Of a DNA stretch of 64,000 bases, positions 45,586 to 52,719 are shown one piece after another. Both the position numbers and the translations under genes were made by a program. The first letter of the stretch is position 1, and each line of letters opens with the position of its first letter. Below the pieces are notes generated by a model, which saw only the letters and a list, made by a program, of their open reading frames with translations, had not been told where the DNA came from and did not search any database. Location: positions 1 through 64,000 of the forward strand of contig JANQEE010000069.1 in assembly GCA_028278525.1 (NCBI GenBank). Direction: 5' to 3'. The DNA is from Minwuiaceae bacterium. Lineage in GTDB: Bacteria > Pseudomonadota > Alphaproteobacteria > Minwuiales > Minwuiaceae.

Positions 45586-48500
45586 TCAGGCTGCGGATTT
45601 CGGCCGGCCCAAGGCTTCGTTGAGGACCACGTAGAGCTTGCCGACATCCGACGTGAGTAGCGTGCGTTTCAGCATCGCGGCGTGGTCGGACTGTTCGCTC
45701 TGGACCATGATGCCTTCGAATTCCTGGCGGTAGAGATCCATGTAGCGGCGGAAGTCGGCGTCTTCCTGGTACTTGTGCCGGATCGAGTCCGCGCCGGAAC
45801 GGTCCAGCAGGCGGCGGGTGAACAGGCCCTTCTCGCCGTTGTAGTAACGCTCCCACACCTCGTCGGCGACGGCGCGGTCGAGGAAGCGGTTGAGGTCGAT
45901 GGCGATCGAATCCAGGCGCTCGATCGAGAACGCGGCGGCGCGCATGATCTCGTCGCCGCGGCGCATCTCCTCCGCTTTACGCAGAACGTCCGATTGCTCC
46001 GCCGCCTGCTCGGCGGCCTGGACCAGCGCTTCGGCCTGGGTCCGGAACGATTCCGCCGCGGTATCGGCCTGGGCGGCGGCCGCCTTGCTCGCCGCCGTCA
46101 ACTGCTCGGCGTGGCGGCGCATGGATTCTTCGACCTCGGTCGTGGTCTGAATGGCGTTCATGGCCATCTGGGCGATGCCGTCTTCGTGACGCTGCATCGC
46201 CGTCTCGGCCTCGCGGACCATGGCGAGAATCAGGTCGCCGGTCTCCGCGATCACATGCGCCTGGCGGCGGAAGCCGTCCGAGGCTTCGTTCGCGTTGGCC
46301 AGAGCCTGCTCGGACGCATCGGCAGCCCCTCTGGCGCTGCCGCCGATCGCGTCGCCGGCCTGCTCCAGCCGGCCGGCGACCGCGGCCGCACGGTCCAACT
46401 GCGCTTCGTGCCGGTCGAAGGCGCGGCCGGTTTTTTCCAGTTCCTCGCGGGTGCGGACGCCGGCGGCGGACAGCGCCTCTGTGCGCGCATCGATCATCTC
46501 GCCGGCCTCGCCCATTTCCTCGGCGCGGCGGCGCAAGGCCTCGCCGATCGCCGCCGTCTGCAGCGACAGCTGGCCGGACAGGCGCGACAGGCCTTCCGCC
46601 TTCTCCTGCAATTCCTGACGCAGCACGGCGGCCTCCTCGCGCGCCTGGCTGAAGGCGGCGGCGAAGGCATCGCCCTGGGACCGGGCCGCCTCGCCGGCGG
46701 CTTCGATCTGCTGGGCCGCTTCGACGAACTGGGCCACCTGCTCGGTCGCCTGCTCGCTGGCGGCGCGCATCGCTTCGGTCTCCTGGCGGGCATCCTTGCC
46801 GAGGCCGATCAGTTGCGCGGTCGCCTGCTCGGCCGTCCTGGCCAATTGTTCCGCCTGACGTCGCACAACGCCGCCCGTGACTTCCGCCTTGCCGGCGGCG
46901 TCGCCGGACGCCTTGGCGAACGCGTCCAATTCCTCCCGCGTCGCGGCGGCGGCGGTGCGCAGCGCCGCTTCCGCATCGCCGGCTGCTTCCGTCAAGGCGC
47001 CGGTCTGAGCCCGCGCGGCCGACTGAGCCTGGACCAACTTGCCGGCCACATCGTCCCCGGCCGTGCCGAGATTTTCCGCGGCGCGGCGGAAATCCGCCTC
47101 CGCGCCCATTAGCTGCTCGCCGGTCGCCGCCGCCGTCTCGTTCAACGCGGTCGCTTCGCGGCGCGCGGCCTCGAAACCGGCGGCAGCCGTCTCGCCGGCC
47201 TCGGCGATGCGCGCCGTCTCCGCGACGACGCCCTCCGCCGCCGCAAGCATCTCCGCGCTCTCGTTACGCGCCGTCTGGCTGAGACCGGAGAGCTTGCCGG
47301 ACGCGAGTTCCGTCGCCTCCGCCAAGCCTTCGGCCGATTGCCGGGCCGCTTCGGCGAACCGCGTCGCCTTGGCCGCGGCGTTGTCCGCTTCCGAGCCGAA
47401 TTCGCCGGCCTGTTCCTTGGCCGTCTCGGTCGCCTGCTTCAGCTTGCCTTCGGCGCCGAGCGCGGCCTGGGCAAGTTCGAGGGTCTGCGACTTCGCGCCG
47501 GACGCGGCATTTTCCAGGCGCGCCGTCGCCTGCTCGCCGGCTTCGCCCATCGCCTGGGCGGCGCGGCGGAATTCCGCCTCGGCGGCGGTGATATCGGTGC
47601 CGGCCTTGGCGGTGGTCTCGACCAGCGCCTCCGCTTCCCGACGCGCGGTTTCGGCCTGCGCGGCCGCGGCTTCGCCGACCGCGGCGATCTTCTCCGCCGC
47701 CGCGCCGCCGACTTCGGCGACACGGTCCGCCTGCGCCGCCACGTCGTCAACGGCAACCCGCAACGACCCGGCCTGGGTCAACGCCGCTTCGCCGGCGCCG
47801 GTAAGGCGCGCGGTGGCGCGGGCAGACGCCACGGAAAGTTCTTCGTTGCCGAGACGCGCACTCTCGGCCGCCTGCGCCGCCATGTCGCGCGCCGCCTCCG
47901 CTTCCTCGGTAAAGCCTTCCAACTGGCCGCGGATGGTTCCAACCGCGTCCAGCAGCTTGCCCTCGGTCTCGATTGCCGACTGCGCGAGTTCGTAGGTCTC
48001 GGACTTGACGGTCGCGCCAGCCTCGCCCAGCCGCGACGCCACGTCGCCGCCGGCGTCGCCCAAGGCGCCGGCCGCGCGAAGCAGATCGCTCTCCAGGGCT
48101 TTCAGGTCGACACCGGTGGATTCAGCAGATGCGATCAGCGCGCGCGTCTCGGCGCGGACCGTCTCGCCGACGGCAAGCACCGCCTCGCCCGCGCGCTCGA
48201 CACCGGCGGTCGCCGTTTGCGTCAGCGTCGCAATCTCTTCCGCCGCGGTGCGGCCGGCGGAGGCGACACGCACCGCTTCGGTCGCGACCGCCTTGCCGGC
48301 TTCCTGAATTTCCACCGCACGATCGCGGGCAGTGGCGCCCATGCGCTCCAGCCGGACCGCGGACTCTTCCGCCACCTCGCTGAGGCGCTGCGTCTGCTGT
48401 TCGGCCTGCGTGCCAGCTTCCTCGGTGGCGGCCTTCGCCTGCTCCGCCGCCACGCGCAGGGCATCTGCGATCCGTTCGGCCGCGGCCCCGGTATCGGTCA

Positions 48501-51500
48501 GTTGCAGGTCGGCCTTCTCCGCCACGTCCGACAGGGCGGCGGTCTGCTCCCGCGTCCGGTCGGCGGCATCGGAAAGCTGTTCGGCGGTCTGTTCGCCCGC
48601 CTGGGTCAGCTCCGCCGCGGTACGGCGCATGTCGGCGGCGGCCTCACCGGCCGCGCCCAACTGTTCGATGGCCGCGGTGCTGGTCGCGGCAAGCTCCCGG
48701 GTCTGGTCCGCGGCCGTCTCGCCGGCGCGGCGCAACGCATCGGTCTGCGCACCGGCCTGTTCGCCGAGCGCGGCAAGCTGCTCTTCGGCGTGGCCCATCG
48801 CTTGGCCGAGCGCACCGGCCTGCTGACGCGCCGCGGCGCCGGCACCGGACGCCTTGGCGATGGCGTCGTCGGCGACGGTGGCGAATTCGGAAAGATCCTG
48901 CTTCGCGGTCTCCGCCGCCGATTGCAGGCTTTGTTCGGCCCGCCCGGCGGCAGCACCCAAGGCATCGCTCTGCTCGGTTGCACGGGAGCTCATCTTGTCC
49001 AGGGAGCCGGCCGCGCGGCGCACCTCGGCGGCGACGATGCCGAGGCGGTCGCCCGCATCCTCGGCGGCTTCGCGCAGGTCCTCGGTCTGCTGGCGCGCGG
49101 TCTCGCCGGCGGCGCCGAAGGTGTCGGCAATCGCATCAACTTCCGCGCGGGCGGCATCGCCCGCTTCGCGAACCGTGACGACCATGCCGTCCGCTTCGCG
49201 CTGCAAGAGCTGCCGCAGGGCTTCGGTATTGTCGCGCGCGGCGCTGCCGGCGCTTTCGACCGAGGCGATCATCGCTTCGGCCTGTTTGTGCACGGCGGCG
49301 CCAAGCTGTTCGGCTTCGCTGCGCGCGGCGGCGCTGGCCCGACTGACGGTTTCGACGATCGTGTCGGCCTGCGCCTTGGCGTCGGCGCCGGCCTGCTCAG
49401 TCGCGGCGCGCGCCTCCTCGCCGGTGCGCTTGATCCCCTCGACGACGAAGTCGGCCTGAATCCGCGCCGCCTCGCCGAGCGCCTCGGTCTGCTGGCGTGC
49501 CTCTTCCCCAGCCTCGCGGAGCGCGGTCACTGTTTCTTCCGCATGCTCCTTGGCGGCGTCGGACAACACCGCGCCGTGGCGGCGCGCCTGGTTGGTCGCT
49601 TCCTGCACGGACTCGACGACCTCGCCGATCTTCGCGGTCGCGGCTTCGCCGAGTTCGCCGGCTTCGCGGCGCGCGGCATCGGCGGCATCGCGCATCGACG
49701 CGGCAACCGCATCGACATCGGCCTTCGCCGCCTTGCCGACCTCGGTGTTCTCCCGCCTGGCCGCAGCGCCCGCCCGGGCGACCGCATCGGTGATTTCGTC
49801 CGCCTGCGTCTCCGCCGCCCTGCTGGCTGCGACAAGGGCCGCCGCGGCTTCGCGGCCGGCCTCGGTCAGCGCATCGGTCCGTTCCAGCGTCTCGGCGCCG
49901 GCGTCGCGAACCGCTTCGGTCTGCGCCAGGGTCGCATCGGTCATTTCGGCCAGACGGTCGGCGGCTTCGTCGGCCGCCTCCGTCAGCCGGCCCGTCTCCT
50001 GCCGAACCGCCTCCGCGGCGGATTCGGAAGCGGACGCGGCCTGCCCGACGCCCTCGGCCAGATTGTCCACCTGACCGCGGACGGAACCGGTCATCTTCTC
50101 GAGCGTCTCGCCGGCGGCGGCCGCCGCCGTTTGCAGCGCGGCAGCCTGGTCCAGCGCCGCGGCGCCGGTTTGGCGCAATCCTTCGCCGGCTTCCCGGGCA
50201 GAGGTCTCCAGCGAATCCTTCTCGAGACGCATGCGTTCGCCCGCCTCGGCGACGCCGCGCATCGCGGCGGCCGCCGCATCGGTCAGGACGGTCGCCTGAT
50301 GGCGCAACAGGTTGCCGGTCTCCGCGACCTGGGCGCCGGTGCTGGCGGCGGCGCTCGACAGCCGCCGCGTCGCGTCGTCCAAATTGTCGCCGATGGTCTC
50401 GGTGAAGCCCGCCGTCTTTTCGGACAGCCCGGCCAGATCGTCCATCCGGTCGTTCACGCTGGCGGCAAGCGCTTCGGCGCGGCGGTCCGCCTCGTCCGCG
50501 GTGTCGCGGAGCGCCCGCGCATGACTGCGGAAACCGGCGCCGAGCGCGGCACTGCGCTGTTCGGCCTGATCGGCAGCGGCACCGAGGGCGGTTTCCGTCT
50601 CCCGCAACGACGCTTCGGCGCCGGTCAGTTTGGCCGTGGTGTCGCCCGCCGCCGCGGCCAGCGCCTCCGCCTGATCGGTCACGGCGCCGGTCGCGCTGAC
50701 CAGCCGCGCCTCGGCGTCCGACGCGGCGCGGTCCATGGTTTCGTAAAGCTCGTCGCTCCGGTCGCCGATCGACTGGCCGGCGGTTTCGAACCGGACCTCG
50801 ATCTCCGACGCGGTCAGGTCCGCCGCCTTGGCCATGGCGCGGCCCTGCGCCTCGACCGCCTCTCCGGCGGCCGCGACGCGCTGTTCGACAGAGGCGGCGG
50901 ATTGAGCCGACGCCTCGACCATGGCCTGCGTCTGCTCCGAGACGGCATCGCCGACCGTTTCCAGCCGCCCTTCCATCTCGGCGGCTGCCTTGTCGACAGC
51001 TTGCAACGCGTCGTGCGACTTCTGGGCCATCGCCTCGCCCGCCGCAATGAAGCGGGTCTCGGTGGCGTCCGCGGCCCGATCGACATTCTCGACCATCGAC
51101 CGGATCTGGGTGCGCAGGGTTGCGCTGACGGCCGTGAGGCCGGCCCTGGCCTTCTCGACCAACCGATTGTGCGCGAGGCCAAGCGCCTCGCCACGCTTCT
51201 CGAGCACGGACTGGGACTTCGCGATGCGTTCTTCCGCATCGGTGAGGGCCCGGTCGGTCGCGCCGACAACCGCATCGCCATGTTCGGTTATCTTGTCCAG
51301 CGCACCGGCGATGCGCGTCTCGGCCGACGTGGCGGCGGACGTGGCGACCTCGGCCATCCGGTCCGCCTGTTCGGCCATCGCATCGGCCGCGGCCTGGCCG
51401 CGCGCCTCGATGTCGGCGGCGGAGGCATCCGCCGCCTTGGACAGCGCATCCGCCCGACCGGTCAACGCGTCCGAGACGGCGCCGACGCGCTGACCGGATT

Positions 51501-52719
51501 TTTCGGCAGCAGCGGCAACATCGGCGGATTGCCGAGCCAGGCTTTCCGTCGCCTCGCGCAGCCGCGCTTCGGAACTTTCCGCGGCGGCGGACAAATCGCG
51601 CGCCTGAAGATCCATGGCTTCGGCCGCTTTGGCAAAGTCGCCGACGCGCGCCTGCATGGCGTCGCCGGCCTTGTCCAGGGCCGCCGTCGCGATGCCCGAC
51701 GACCGGTCGAGTGTCGATGCATTCTCGGCAATCGCAGTGCCGGCTTCGGTGATGCGGGCAAGCGTCCGTTCGGCCGACGCGTCCATTTCGATCAGGCGGT
51801 TCTGAAACGTCTCACCGGCATGGTCGGTCAATTGCGACGTGCGCTCCGCGGCCTCGGCCATCTCCTGCGATTCCCTGCGCAGAATCTCGCCGGCATTGGT
51901 CGCCTGCTCCATCGCCTCGCCGGTCCGCTCCAGCAATCGGCGGGCGTGGCCTTCGAGATCGGCGCCGACATCCTGGGCTTTGGCCGCAGCATAGTTGGCG
52001 GCATTGTTCAGGGAATCGACCTGCTGCTGCAGCTTGTGGCGTACGACAAGCGAGCGCTCCGCCGCTTCCGACGCGGCATTGACCAGCTCACGAGCCTGGC
52101 CGCGGGCGGACTCGCGCACCTCGGCCTCGCGCGCCTGCATCTGCTGAACCATGTCGTTCAGGTTGGCGCTGCGCTTCTCCAGCGACCGTTCGAACTGGGC
52201 GGCCTGGCTGGCAAAGCCGTCGCCGGCCTGGCCGATGGTCTTGGCGTGGGTTTCGATCTGGCCGCTCAGCACCTGCACCTGGGCCAGGGTGTTTTCCGAC
52301 GTCGCCTGCAACTCGCGGCCATGACGGCGGAGCGTCGTCGTCAGGGCGGAGACCCGCGCCTCCACCTCGGGCGTCGGATAGGTTAGATCGGTCAGGATGT
52401 CGTGCAGGGCGCGGGCGTTGCGGCGCAAGTCGACGCCGCGAATGACGTAGAGGACCGCGACCCAAATCACCACCAGCGGCGTCGCCGCACCGGTCACCAG
52501 GCTGCCGACTTCATGCGGCAGCAGTTGGGTGAAGACCGACCAGCCGATGGCCTGGAAGAAATAGGCGATGCAGAAGGTCAGCCAGACGGCCGTGACCCCG
52601 AGCGCGATCGCCACCGCAATTCGGCCCCGTTTGACGGCCTTGAGCTCCGGCACGACCATCGGCGACAGCATGGGCGCCGGCATATTTTCTTGTCTAGCGC
52701 GCGGGAATTTCAGCAGCAT
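45586..52719 (-). CDS. Giant membrane-anchored coiled-coil protein, TipN-like polarity factor (tentative)
   Basis: A 2377-residue protein with two N-terminal membrane helices (about residues 33-58 and 72-94) and then ~2140 residues of Ala/Glu/Gln/Arg-rich helix. From about residue 118 to ~2370 I see no proline, and the rod also lacks tryptophan and cysteine. The last ~130 residues form a different, conserved-looking domain (RLDSIAIDLNRFLDRAV, WERYYNGEKGLFTRRLL, SDVGKLYVVLNEALGR). Layout and tail recall TipN-type polar proteins of Alphaproteobacteria, but TipN of Caulobacter is under 900 residues. The rod holds exact 29-residue repeats at residues 411-700 and 984-1186, and three long repeats after residue ~1500. 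Transcribed divergently from ridA across two palindromes. Confidence 0.8.
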   Translation of the reverse strand: MLLKFPRARQENMPAPMLSPMVVPELKAVKRGRIAVAIALGVTAVWLTFCIAYFFQAIGWSVFTQLLPHEVGSLVTGAATPLVVIWVAVLYVIRGVDLRRNARALHDILTDLTYPTPEVEARVSALTTTLRRHGRELQATSENTLAQVQVLSGQIETHAKTIGQAGDGFASQAAQFERSLEKRSANLNDMVQQMQAREAEVRESARGQARELVNAASEAAERSLVVRHKLQQQVDSLNNAANYAAAKAQDVGADLEGHARRLLERTGEAMEQATNAGEILRRESQEMAEAAERTSQLTDHAGETFQNRLIEMDASAERTLARITEAGTAIAENASTLDRSSGIATAALDKAGDAMQARVGDFAKAAEAMDLQARDLSAAAESSEARLREATESLARQSADVAAAAEKSGQRVGAVSDALTGRADALSKAADASAADIEARGQAAADAMAEQADRMAEVATSAATSAETRIAGALDKITEHGDAVVGATDRALTDAEERIAKSQSVLEKRGEALGLAHNRLVEKARAGLTAVSATLRTQIRSMVENVDRAADATETRFIAAGEAMAQKSHDALQAVDKAAAEMEGRLETVGDAVSEQTQAMVEASAQSAASVEQRVAAAGEAVEAQGRAMAKAADLTASEIEVRFETAGQSIGDRSDELYETMDRAASDAEARLVSATGAVTDQAEALAAAAGDTTAKLTGAEASLRETETALGAAADQAEQRSAALGAGFRSHARALRDTADEADRRAEALAASVNDRMDDLAGLSEKTAGFTETIGDNLDDATRRLSSAAASTGAQVAETGNLLRHQATVLTDAAAAAMRGVAEAGERMRLEKDSLETSAREAGEGLRQTGAAALDQAAALQTAAAAAGETLEKMTGSVRGQVDNLAEGVGQAASASESAAEAVRQETGRLTEAADEAADRLAEMTDATLAQTEAVRDAGAETLERTDALTEAGREAAAALVAASRAAETQADEITDAVARAGAAARRENTEVGKAAKADVDAVAASMRDAADAARREAGELGEAATAKIGEVVESVQEATNQARRHGAVLSDAAKEHAEETVTALREAGEEARQQTEALGEAARIQADFVVEGIKRTGEEARAATEQAGADAKAQADTIVETVSRASAAARSEAEQLGAAVHKQAEAMIASVESAGSAARDNTEALRQLLQREADGMVVTVREAGDAARAEVDAIADTFGAAGETARQQTEDLREAAEDAGDRLGIVAAEVRRAAGSLDKMSSRATEQSDALGAAAGRAEQSLQSAAETAKQDLSEFATVADDAIAKASGAGAAARQQAGALGQAMGHAEEQLAALGEQAGAQTDALRRAGETAADQTRELAATSTAAIEQLGAAGEAAADMRRTAAELTQAGEQTAEQLSDAADRTREQTAALSDVAEKADLQLTDTGAAAERIADALRVAAEQAKAATEEAGTQAEQQTQRLSEVAEESAVRLERMGATARDRAVEIQEAGKAVATEAVRVASAGRTAAEEIATLTQTATAGVERAGEAVLAVGETVRAETRALIASAESTGVDLKALESDLLRAAGALGDAGGDVASRLGEAGATVKSETYELAQSAIETEGKLLDAVGTIRGQLEGFTEEAEAARDMAAQAAESARLGNEELSVASARATARLTGAGEAALTQAGSLRVAVDDVAAQADRVAEVGGAAAEKIAAVGEAAAAQAETARREAEALVETTAKAGTDITAAEAEFRRAAQAMGEAGEQATARLENAASGAKSQTLELAQAALGAEGKLKQATETAKEQAGEFGSEADNAAAKATRFAEAARQSAEGLAEATELASGKLSGLSQTARNESAEMLAAAEGVVAETARIAEAGETAAAGFEAARREATALNETAAATGEQLMGAEADFRRAAENLGTAGDDVAGKLVQAQSAARAQTGALTEAAGDAEAALRTAAAATREELDAFAKASGDAAGKAEVTGGVVRRQAEQLARTAEQATAQLIGLGKDARQETEAMRAASEQATEQVAQFVEAAQQIEAAGEAARSQGDAFAAAFSQAREEAAVLRQELQEKAEGLSRLSGQLSLQTAAIGEALRRRAEEMGEAGEMIDARTEALSAAGVRTREELEKTGRAFDRHEAQLDRAAAVAGRLEQAGDAIGGSARGAADASEQALANANEASDGFRRQAHVIAETGDLILAMVREAETAMQRHEDGIAQMAMNAIQTTTEVEESMRRHAEQLTAASKAAAAQADTAAESFRTQAEALVQAAEQAAEQSDVLRKAEEMRRGDEIMRAAAFSIERLDSIAIDLNRFLDRAVADEVWERYYNGEKGLFTRRLLDRSGADSIRHKYQEDADFRRYMDLYRQEFEGIMVQSEQSDHAAMLKRTLLTSDVGKLYVVLNEALGRPKSAA
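47083..48078 (-). repeat. Three long internal repeats in the giant gene
   Basis: Blocks ESDLLRAAGALGDAGGDVASRL, EAEFRRAAQAMGEAGEQATARL and EADFRRAAENLGTAGDDVAGKL recur around residues 1548, 1719 and 1879, spaced 171 and 160 residues. Each is followed by similar LxLAQxAxxxEGKL or TxALTEAAGDAEAAL segments. At the DNA level GCGCGGCGGAAATCCGCCTC (47081) and GCGCGGCGGAATTCCGCCTC (47561) differ at one base. Confidence 0.75.
49162..49770 (-). repeat. Tandem array of seven 29-residue (87-bp) units in the giant gene
   Basis: Residues 984-1186 divide without gaps into seven units of 29 residues. Most begin x-x-x-A-R, for example GAAARRENTEVG, ADAARREAGELG, TNQARRHGAVLS, GEEARQQTEALG, GEEARAATEQAG, SAAARSEAEQLG and GSAARDNTEALR. 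An eighth partial unit starts GDAARAEVDAI at 49161. The period is exact in all seven. Confidence 0.85.
50620..51489 (-). repeat. Tandem array of ten 29-residue units in the giant gene
   Basis: Residues 411-700 divide into ten gapless 29-residue units with a different consensus from the other array. Nine begin with Arg, usually followed by a hydrophobic residue: RVGAVSDAL, RGQAAADAM, RIAGALDKI, RIAKSQSVL, GLTAVSATL (the Gly exception), RFIAAGEAM, RLETVGDAV, RVAAAGEAV, RFETAGQSI, RLVSATGAV. A 21-residue break follows and then at least one more unit (RSAALGAGF). Confidence 0.85.

Follow-up and report, generated by a model that had tools for sequence, protein, structure and literature searches.

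The window considered here, a stretch of 64,000 nucleotides from a Minwuiaceae bacterium, carries on its minus strand (45586..52719) a gene for a protein of 2377 residues, and the question is what such a giant, mostly rod-shaped protein is and what it could do in the cell. Homology places it in a known family, that of the TipN/GPR/RgsE-type scaffolds, membrane-anchored helical proteins organizing one cell end in alphaproteobacteria, and its length is unusual for this family. It probably works as a polar scaffold of this family, anchored in the membrane, with a near-straight, register-locked rod and a head at the far end, and marking a pole in the manner of TipN.

Gene and domain layout

The frame starts with an ATG codon, and its limits and length are exactly those given by an earlier note on this DNA. 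According to hydropathy, two strong hydrophobic helices lie near the N terminus, at about residues 32-60 (52540..52626, minus strand) and 71-99 (52423..52509, minus strand). They belong to a membrane hairpin with a juxtamembrane segment (residues 30-148; 52276..52632, minus strand) recognized as conserved by family and core HMMs. Then comes a helical rod (residues 118-2243; 45991..52368, minus strand), about a quarter of which is Ala, with Pro, Trp, and Cys absent from residues 118-2288. The protein ends with a helical domain formed by the last 135 residues (45589..45993, minus strand). The two membrane helices, the rod of about 2100 residues lacking Pro, Trp, and Cys, and the distinct tail of some 130 residues that the earlier note described are thus all borne out, the tail being a separate domain of about 135 residues.

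An antisense ORF of 1682 aa (window 47338-52386, plus strand) spans most of the rod. In DNA with a GC content of 65%, the giant frame could be no real gene at all but a frame held open by high GC and repeats, with the long antisense frame, which is open as well, as the alternative. This is hardly credible, as the product of the minus strand is conserved class-wide at either end and the codon-position GC fits the minus frame (0.757/0.534/0.844). For these reasons, the minus strand is the coding one, and the antisense ORF, rejected as a true gene, is an incidental by-product of high GC and codon choice.

The gene is flanked by those for TypA, two enoyl-CoA hydratases, a RidA-like protein, and ribonucleotide reductase. 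No neighbors shared with same-family relatives were found in the stretches compared, and only the ribonucleotide reductase gene adjoins one distant homologue; the gene neighborhood is uninformative as to function.

Repeats, period, and length of the rod

The rod had been described as built of exact 29-residue repeats. Two gapless arrays do exist in the registers proposed, array A with ten units (residues 411-700; 50620..51489, minus strand) and array B with seven (residues 984-1186; 49162..49770, minus strand), but they are not exact, as identity at lag 29 is only 24-37%. This identity is 0.238 in array A, where shuffled sequences average 0.114 (z 6.7), and 0.368 in array B, where they average 0.120 (z 10.5). 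At the DNA level, identity at a lag of 87 nt is 49-54% in the arrays and is concentrated, in array B, at codon positions 1 and 2 (0.58 and 0.62 vs 0.41). Because DNA identity is low and, in array B, weighted to these two positions, the arrays are old or selected repeats. A recent tandem duplication of 87-bp units was rejected, DNA identity being at most 54%.

When the rod is taken in full, the strongest lag is 25 (identity 0.203, z 12.5), followed by 50, 29 (0.165, z 6.7), 11, and 39. The autocorrelation peak at lag 29 is therefore present but outranked by that at lag 25, which is the commonest period of the rod, whereas the 29-residue arrays are local. These lag values are sums of 7 and 11, i.e., of heptad and hendecad units. 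Thus, 25 corresponds to 7+7+11 over 7 turns (3.571 residues per turn) and 29 to 7+11+11 over 8 turns (3.625). Measured locally, the hydrophobic pattern has a period of about 3.62-3.63 within the 29-mer arrays and mostly of 3.53-3.60 elsewhere in the rod. The near-straight, non-heptad helix that had been proposed is supported, the rod lying near 3.57-3.63 residues per turn, although the grounds are broader than a unit of 29 residues.

Rods enclosed by the same ends differ in period among relatives, a few of the rods compared having been shortened by the domain parse. Many lineages use 25/50, while Sinorhizobium meliloti, Shinella, and some others use 11/22/44 (3.656-3.667), relatives from the window's own family 18/36, and one relative 29/58. 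Orthologues with the same tail thus run on 25, 22/11, 18, or 29, an outcome that the earlier note had itself named as refuting its reading. The description of the protein as built of 29-residue repeats is not supported, either here or in the family.

The earlier note had also suggested a ruler from membrane to cytoplasm. In a molecular ruler of this kind, the 29-residue unit would fix the distance from the membrane to a cytoplasmic target. Conserved domains at the two ends of a long rod are in line with this idea, as is the constant rod length observed among some close congeners. It is nonetheless highly improbable. Indeed, 29 is not the main period, ORFs with the same ends span some 500 to 2872 aa, and the family shows a roughly fivefold spread in rod length. 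Length also varies within genera (1581-1635, 1926-2121, and 1691-2029 aa), where rods differ by 22-323 residues.

How rods change in length was followed in congeners from genera of relatives rather than from the window's own genus. At 51-98% identity, these pairs display very few rod indels. In the first genus, they are multiples of 22 (22, 44, 66, 88, and 132), in the second there is an indel of 54 (25+29, or 15 turns of 3.6), and in the third they measure 51 (aligned as 4+47), 272, and 323. Short indels are concentrated ahead of the membrane helices, in the N-terminal tail; the gap-opening penalty, raised to 3.5, disfavors small gaps everywhere, yet this tail still shows them. Exceptions are gaps of 1-3 residues in a few pairs and the 54-residue gap, once split into 8+46; one of the relatives compared, L209, has an incomplete frame. 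Among relatives, rods seem to grow or shrink only by blocks that preserve the register, which is a strong pattern rather than a formal test, the events being few and not fully independent. Such in-register blocks (22, 44, 66, and 54), together with the near absence of small indels, suggest a continuous, register-locked helix and not a fixed ruler. They also indicate, as a design rule taken from nature, how the rod could be shortened and yet stay intact.

Conserved ends within the TipN/GPR/RgsE family

The studied proteins GPR, RgsE, and TipN are all found at the cell pole (PMC8262873, PMC7327166, PMC10127582). A tblastn search of S. meliloti with the tail retrieves a gene of 2089 aa at 37% identity (4e-16), which is the published length of RgsE, a homologue of Agrobacterium GPR (PMC7327166). 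RgsE is also found by HMMs that left out the recognized rhizobial rows, at the hairpin (2.8e-8; core hairpin HMM, Z=5000) as well as at the tail (6.7e-37), while shuffled controls score no better than background, and the window hairpin is found at 1.3e-33 by a family HMM lacking the window row (Z=1000). The matches to RgsE at hairpin and tail support the earlier view of a polar-type scaffold with a membrane anchor at one end and a distinct tail at the other. In the S. meliloti record CP090106.1, rgsE (L042:3070-9339) is labeled 'kinesin'; this 3.7-Mb record is titled plasmid pSymB yet carries typA, rgsE, and cytochrome bc1, and its labels are probably wrong.

Like RgsE (2089 aa) and GPR (2115 aa in Agrobacterium tumefaciens), the window protein combines two N-terminal membrane helices forming a homologous hairpin, a very long, uninterrupted, proline-poor rod, and a homologous C-terminal domain. 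Unlike the RgsE rod, based on 11/22/44, that of the window is based on 25 and 29, and the Pfam Apolipoprotein model (PF01442, cut-off 90) scores 257.8 bits with RgsE but 18.8 bits with the window protein. Neither this score, nor the 11-22 residue period, nor an MreB-less, polar-growing host is shared with GPR and RgsE.

The weak Apolipoprotein match (E 0.0014), along with the lipid binding proposed for GPR (PMC8262873), could point to a lipid-binding, apolipoprotein-like protein whose rod would lay amphipathic helices along membranes or lipid bodies. This seems very unlikely given the score below cut-off, the absence of an 11/22 period in a rod led by 25 and 29, and the lack of prolines that would break it into short amphipathic helices.

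The earlier note regarded the combination as novel, which is not upheld, since the family was already known: GPR and RgsE of Rhizobiales share this architecture, and distant RgsE homologues were already reported outside this order, in Rhodospirillales and Emcibacterales (PMC7327166). What seems new lies at the family level, namely, the in-register change of rod length among congeners and a C-terminal domain matching no Pfam, NCBIfam, or PDB-fold entry. These two points, the switch of period, and the Hpt neighbor described below are worth following.

No Pfam or NCBIfam model matches the 135-residue tail, and a profile search of the PDB gave nothing significant. From an alignment of 14 rows, comprising the window sequence and those of related loci, AlphaFold2 predicts eight helices (pLDDT 85, pTM 0.77), and a Foldseek search of the PDB with this model gave nothing convincing (best E 1.9). 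The tail is present in 20 of the 41 genomes of a first sample, and its profile matches 155 of 387 alphaproteobacterial species sampled, nearly always in single copy. In a phylum-wide draw, every tail match, among the matches listed, falls in Alphaproteobacteria. Two or three copies of the domain per genome occur in G208, G254, G268, G305, G320, and G341. The termini of GPR and TipN have been described as disordered (PMC13170164); contrary to this description, the tail is a conserved domain for which a fold is predicted with confidence. Deletion of the last 221 residues abolishes GPR function (PMC8262873), and by homology the deleted segment should include this domain.

On the TipN side, the tail weakly matches Caulobacteraceae proteins of 830-1005 aa (3e-6 to 1.5e-13), among them Brevundimonas TipN-like proteins of roughly 860 aa. 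The core hairpin HMM gives weak results on TipN-sized Caulobacteraceae proteins as well (1.2e-5 for L103, 0.057 for L104, and 3.4 for L105). TipN of Caulobacter crescentus has 882 aa (PMC13170164), and GPR has been described as similar to TipN (PMC8546619). The link to TipN would thus pass through Caulobacteraceae homologues of TipN-like size rather than through the TipN sequence. Through these homologues, the window protein would resemble TipN in its membrane hairpin, alanine-rich rod, and related C-terminal domain, and in a genome with MreB and PopZ, whereas the TipN-side rod is much shorter and the tail similarity weak. One of the Brevundimonas TipN-like proteins (L105:3611-6199) passes the cut-off of Pfam FANCI_S4 (27.3 vs 25.3 bits), in all likelihood a spurious hit caused by its coiled coil.

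In genome family f23, homologues of only about 330-420 aa likewise combine the membrane hairpin and the C-terminal domain but lack any long rod, and their profile scores are weak. In two such rodless proteins (L106:6142-7131 and L107:4368-5429), the hairpin is kept along with a C-terminal domain that matches weakly. The two conserved ends tie the giant rhizobial growth-pole proteins to homologues across alphaproteobacteria, probably including TipN, and, through this link, a division between function, held by the ends, and spacer, provided by the rod, becomes testable.

A putative role at the cell pole

In the proposed mechanism, the two N-terminal helices would anchor the protein in the inner membrane, and the near-straight, proline-free rod of about 2100 residues would run in the cytoplasm, reaching some 315 nm if the helix is unbroken from end to end (at 0.15 nm per residue). 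The folded helical domain at the far end would most likely dock a partner or cap the assembly. The sequence and exact period of the rod would be free to vary, while its helical stripe would have to stay in register; for that reason, rod length would change mainly by whole-turn blocks. The protein most likely marks and organizes a cell pole in the manner of TipN, a landmark of the new pole with a role involving ParA and PopZ, and polar growth would not depend chiefly on it, in contrast to MreB-less Rhizobiales.

A leading role in polar growth would be that of a GPR-like organizer forming a ring at the growing pole and recruiting cell-wall synthesis, as in Agrobacterium; for GPR and RgsE, such a ring, and cells that become round when the protein is lost, are characteristic. 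RgsE and GPR are the closest characterized relatives by sequence, and their giant size is similar. Such a role is nevertheless unlikely here, as the window genome encodes a full MreB (2.2e-149), which Rhizobiales lack, the rod type differs from that of RgsE, and, where orders outside Rhizobiales have an RgsE homologue, no other Rgs proteins were found (PMC7327166). The same authors suggest that these homologues may serve another purpose (PMC7327166). PopZ is also present in the window genome and, since both MreB and PopZ are kept, MreB-less polar growth is a less likely role than polarity.

A broader and more tentative view, somewhat doubtful as a whole, is that the family forms one class-wide polar module. 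It would consist of a register-locked strut whose length changes by whole-turn steps and whose period switches between lineages, with kept ends, a C-terminal domain acting as functional head and binding a conserved polar partner, and a tie to neighboring Hpt proteins in some lineages.

In 14 loci, among them those of S. meliloti rgsE and of a Sphingomonas, the homologue is immediately preceded by a small, divergently oriented gene for an Hpt (histidine phosphotransfer) protein, whereas the window has a RidA-like gene in its place. The Hpt gene is located at L042:2084-2452 and L043:6649-6942 and also occurs upstream in L033, L034, L035, L044, L083, L085, L089, L090, L093, L099, L100, and L108. 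A search of the literature for an Hpt link to these scaffolds found nothing relevant; a phosphorelay connecting the Hpt protein with the scaffold is an idea that this arrangement brings to mind.
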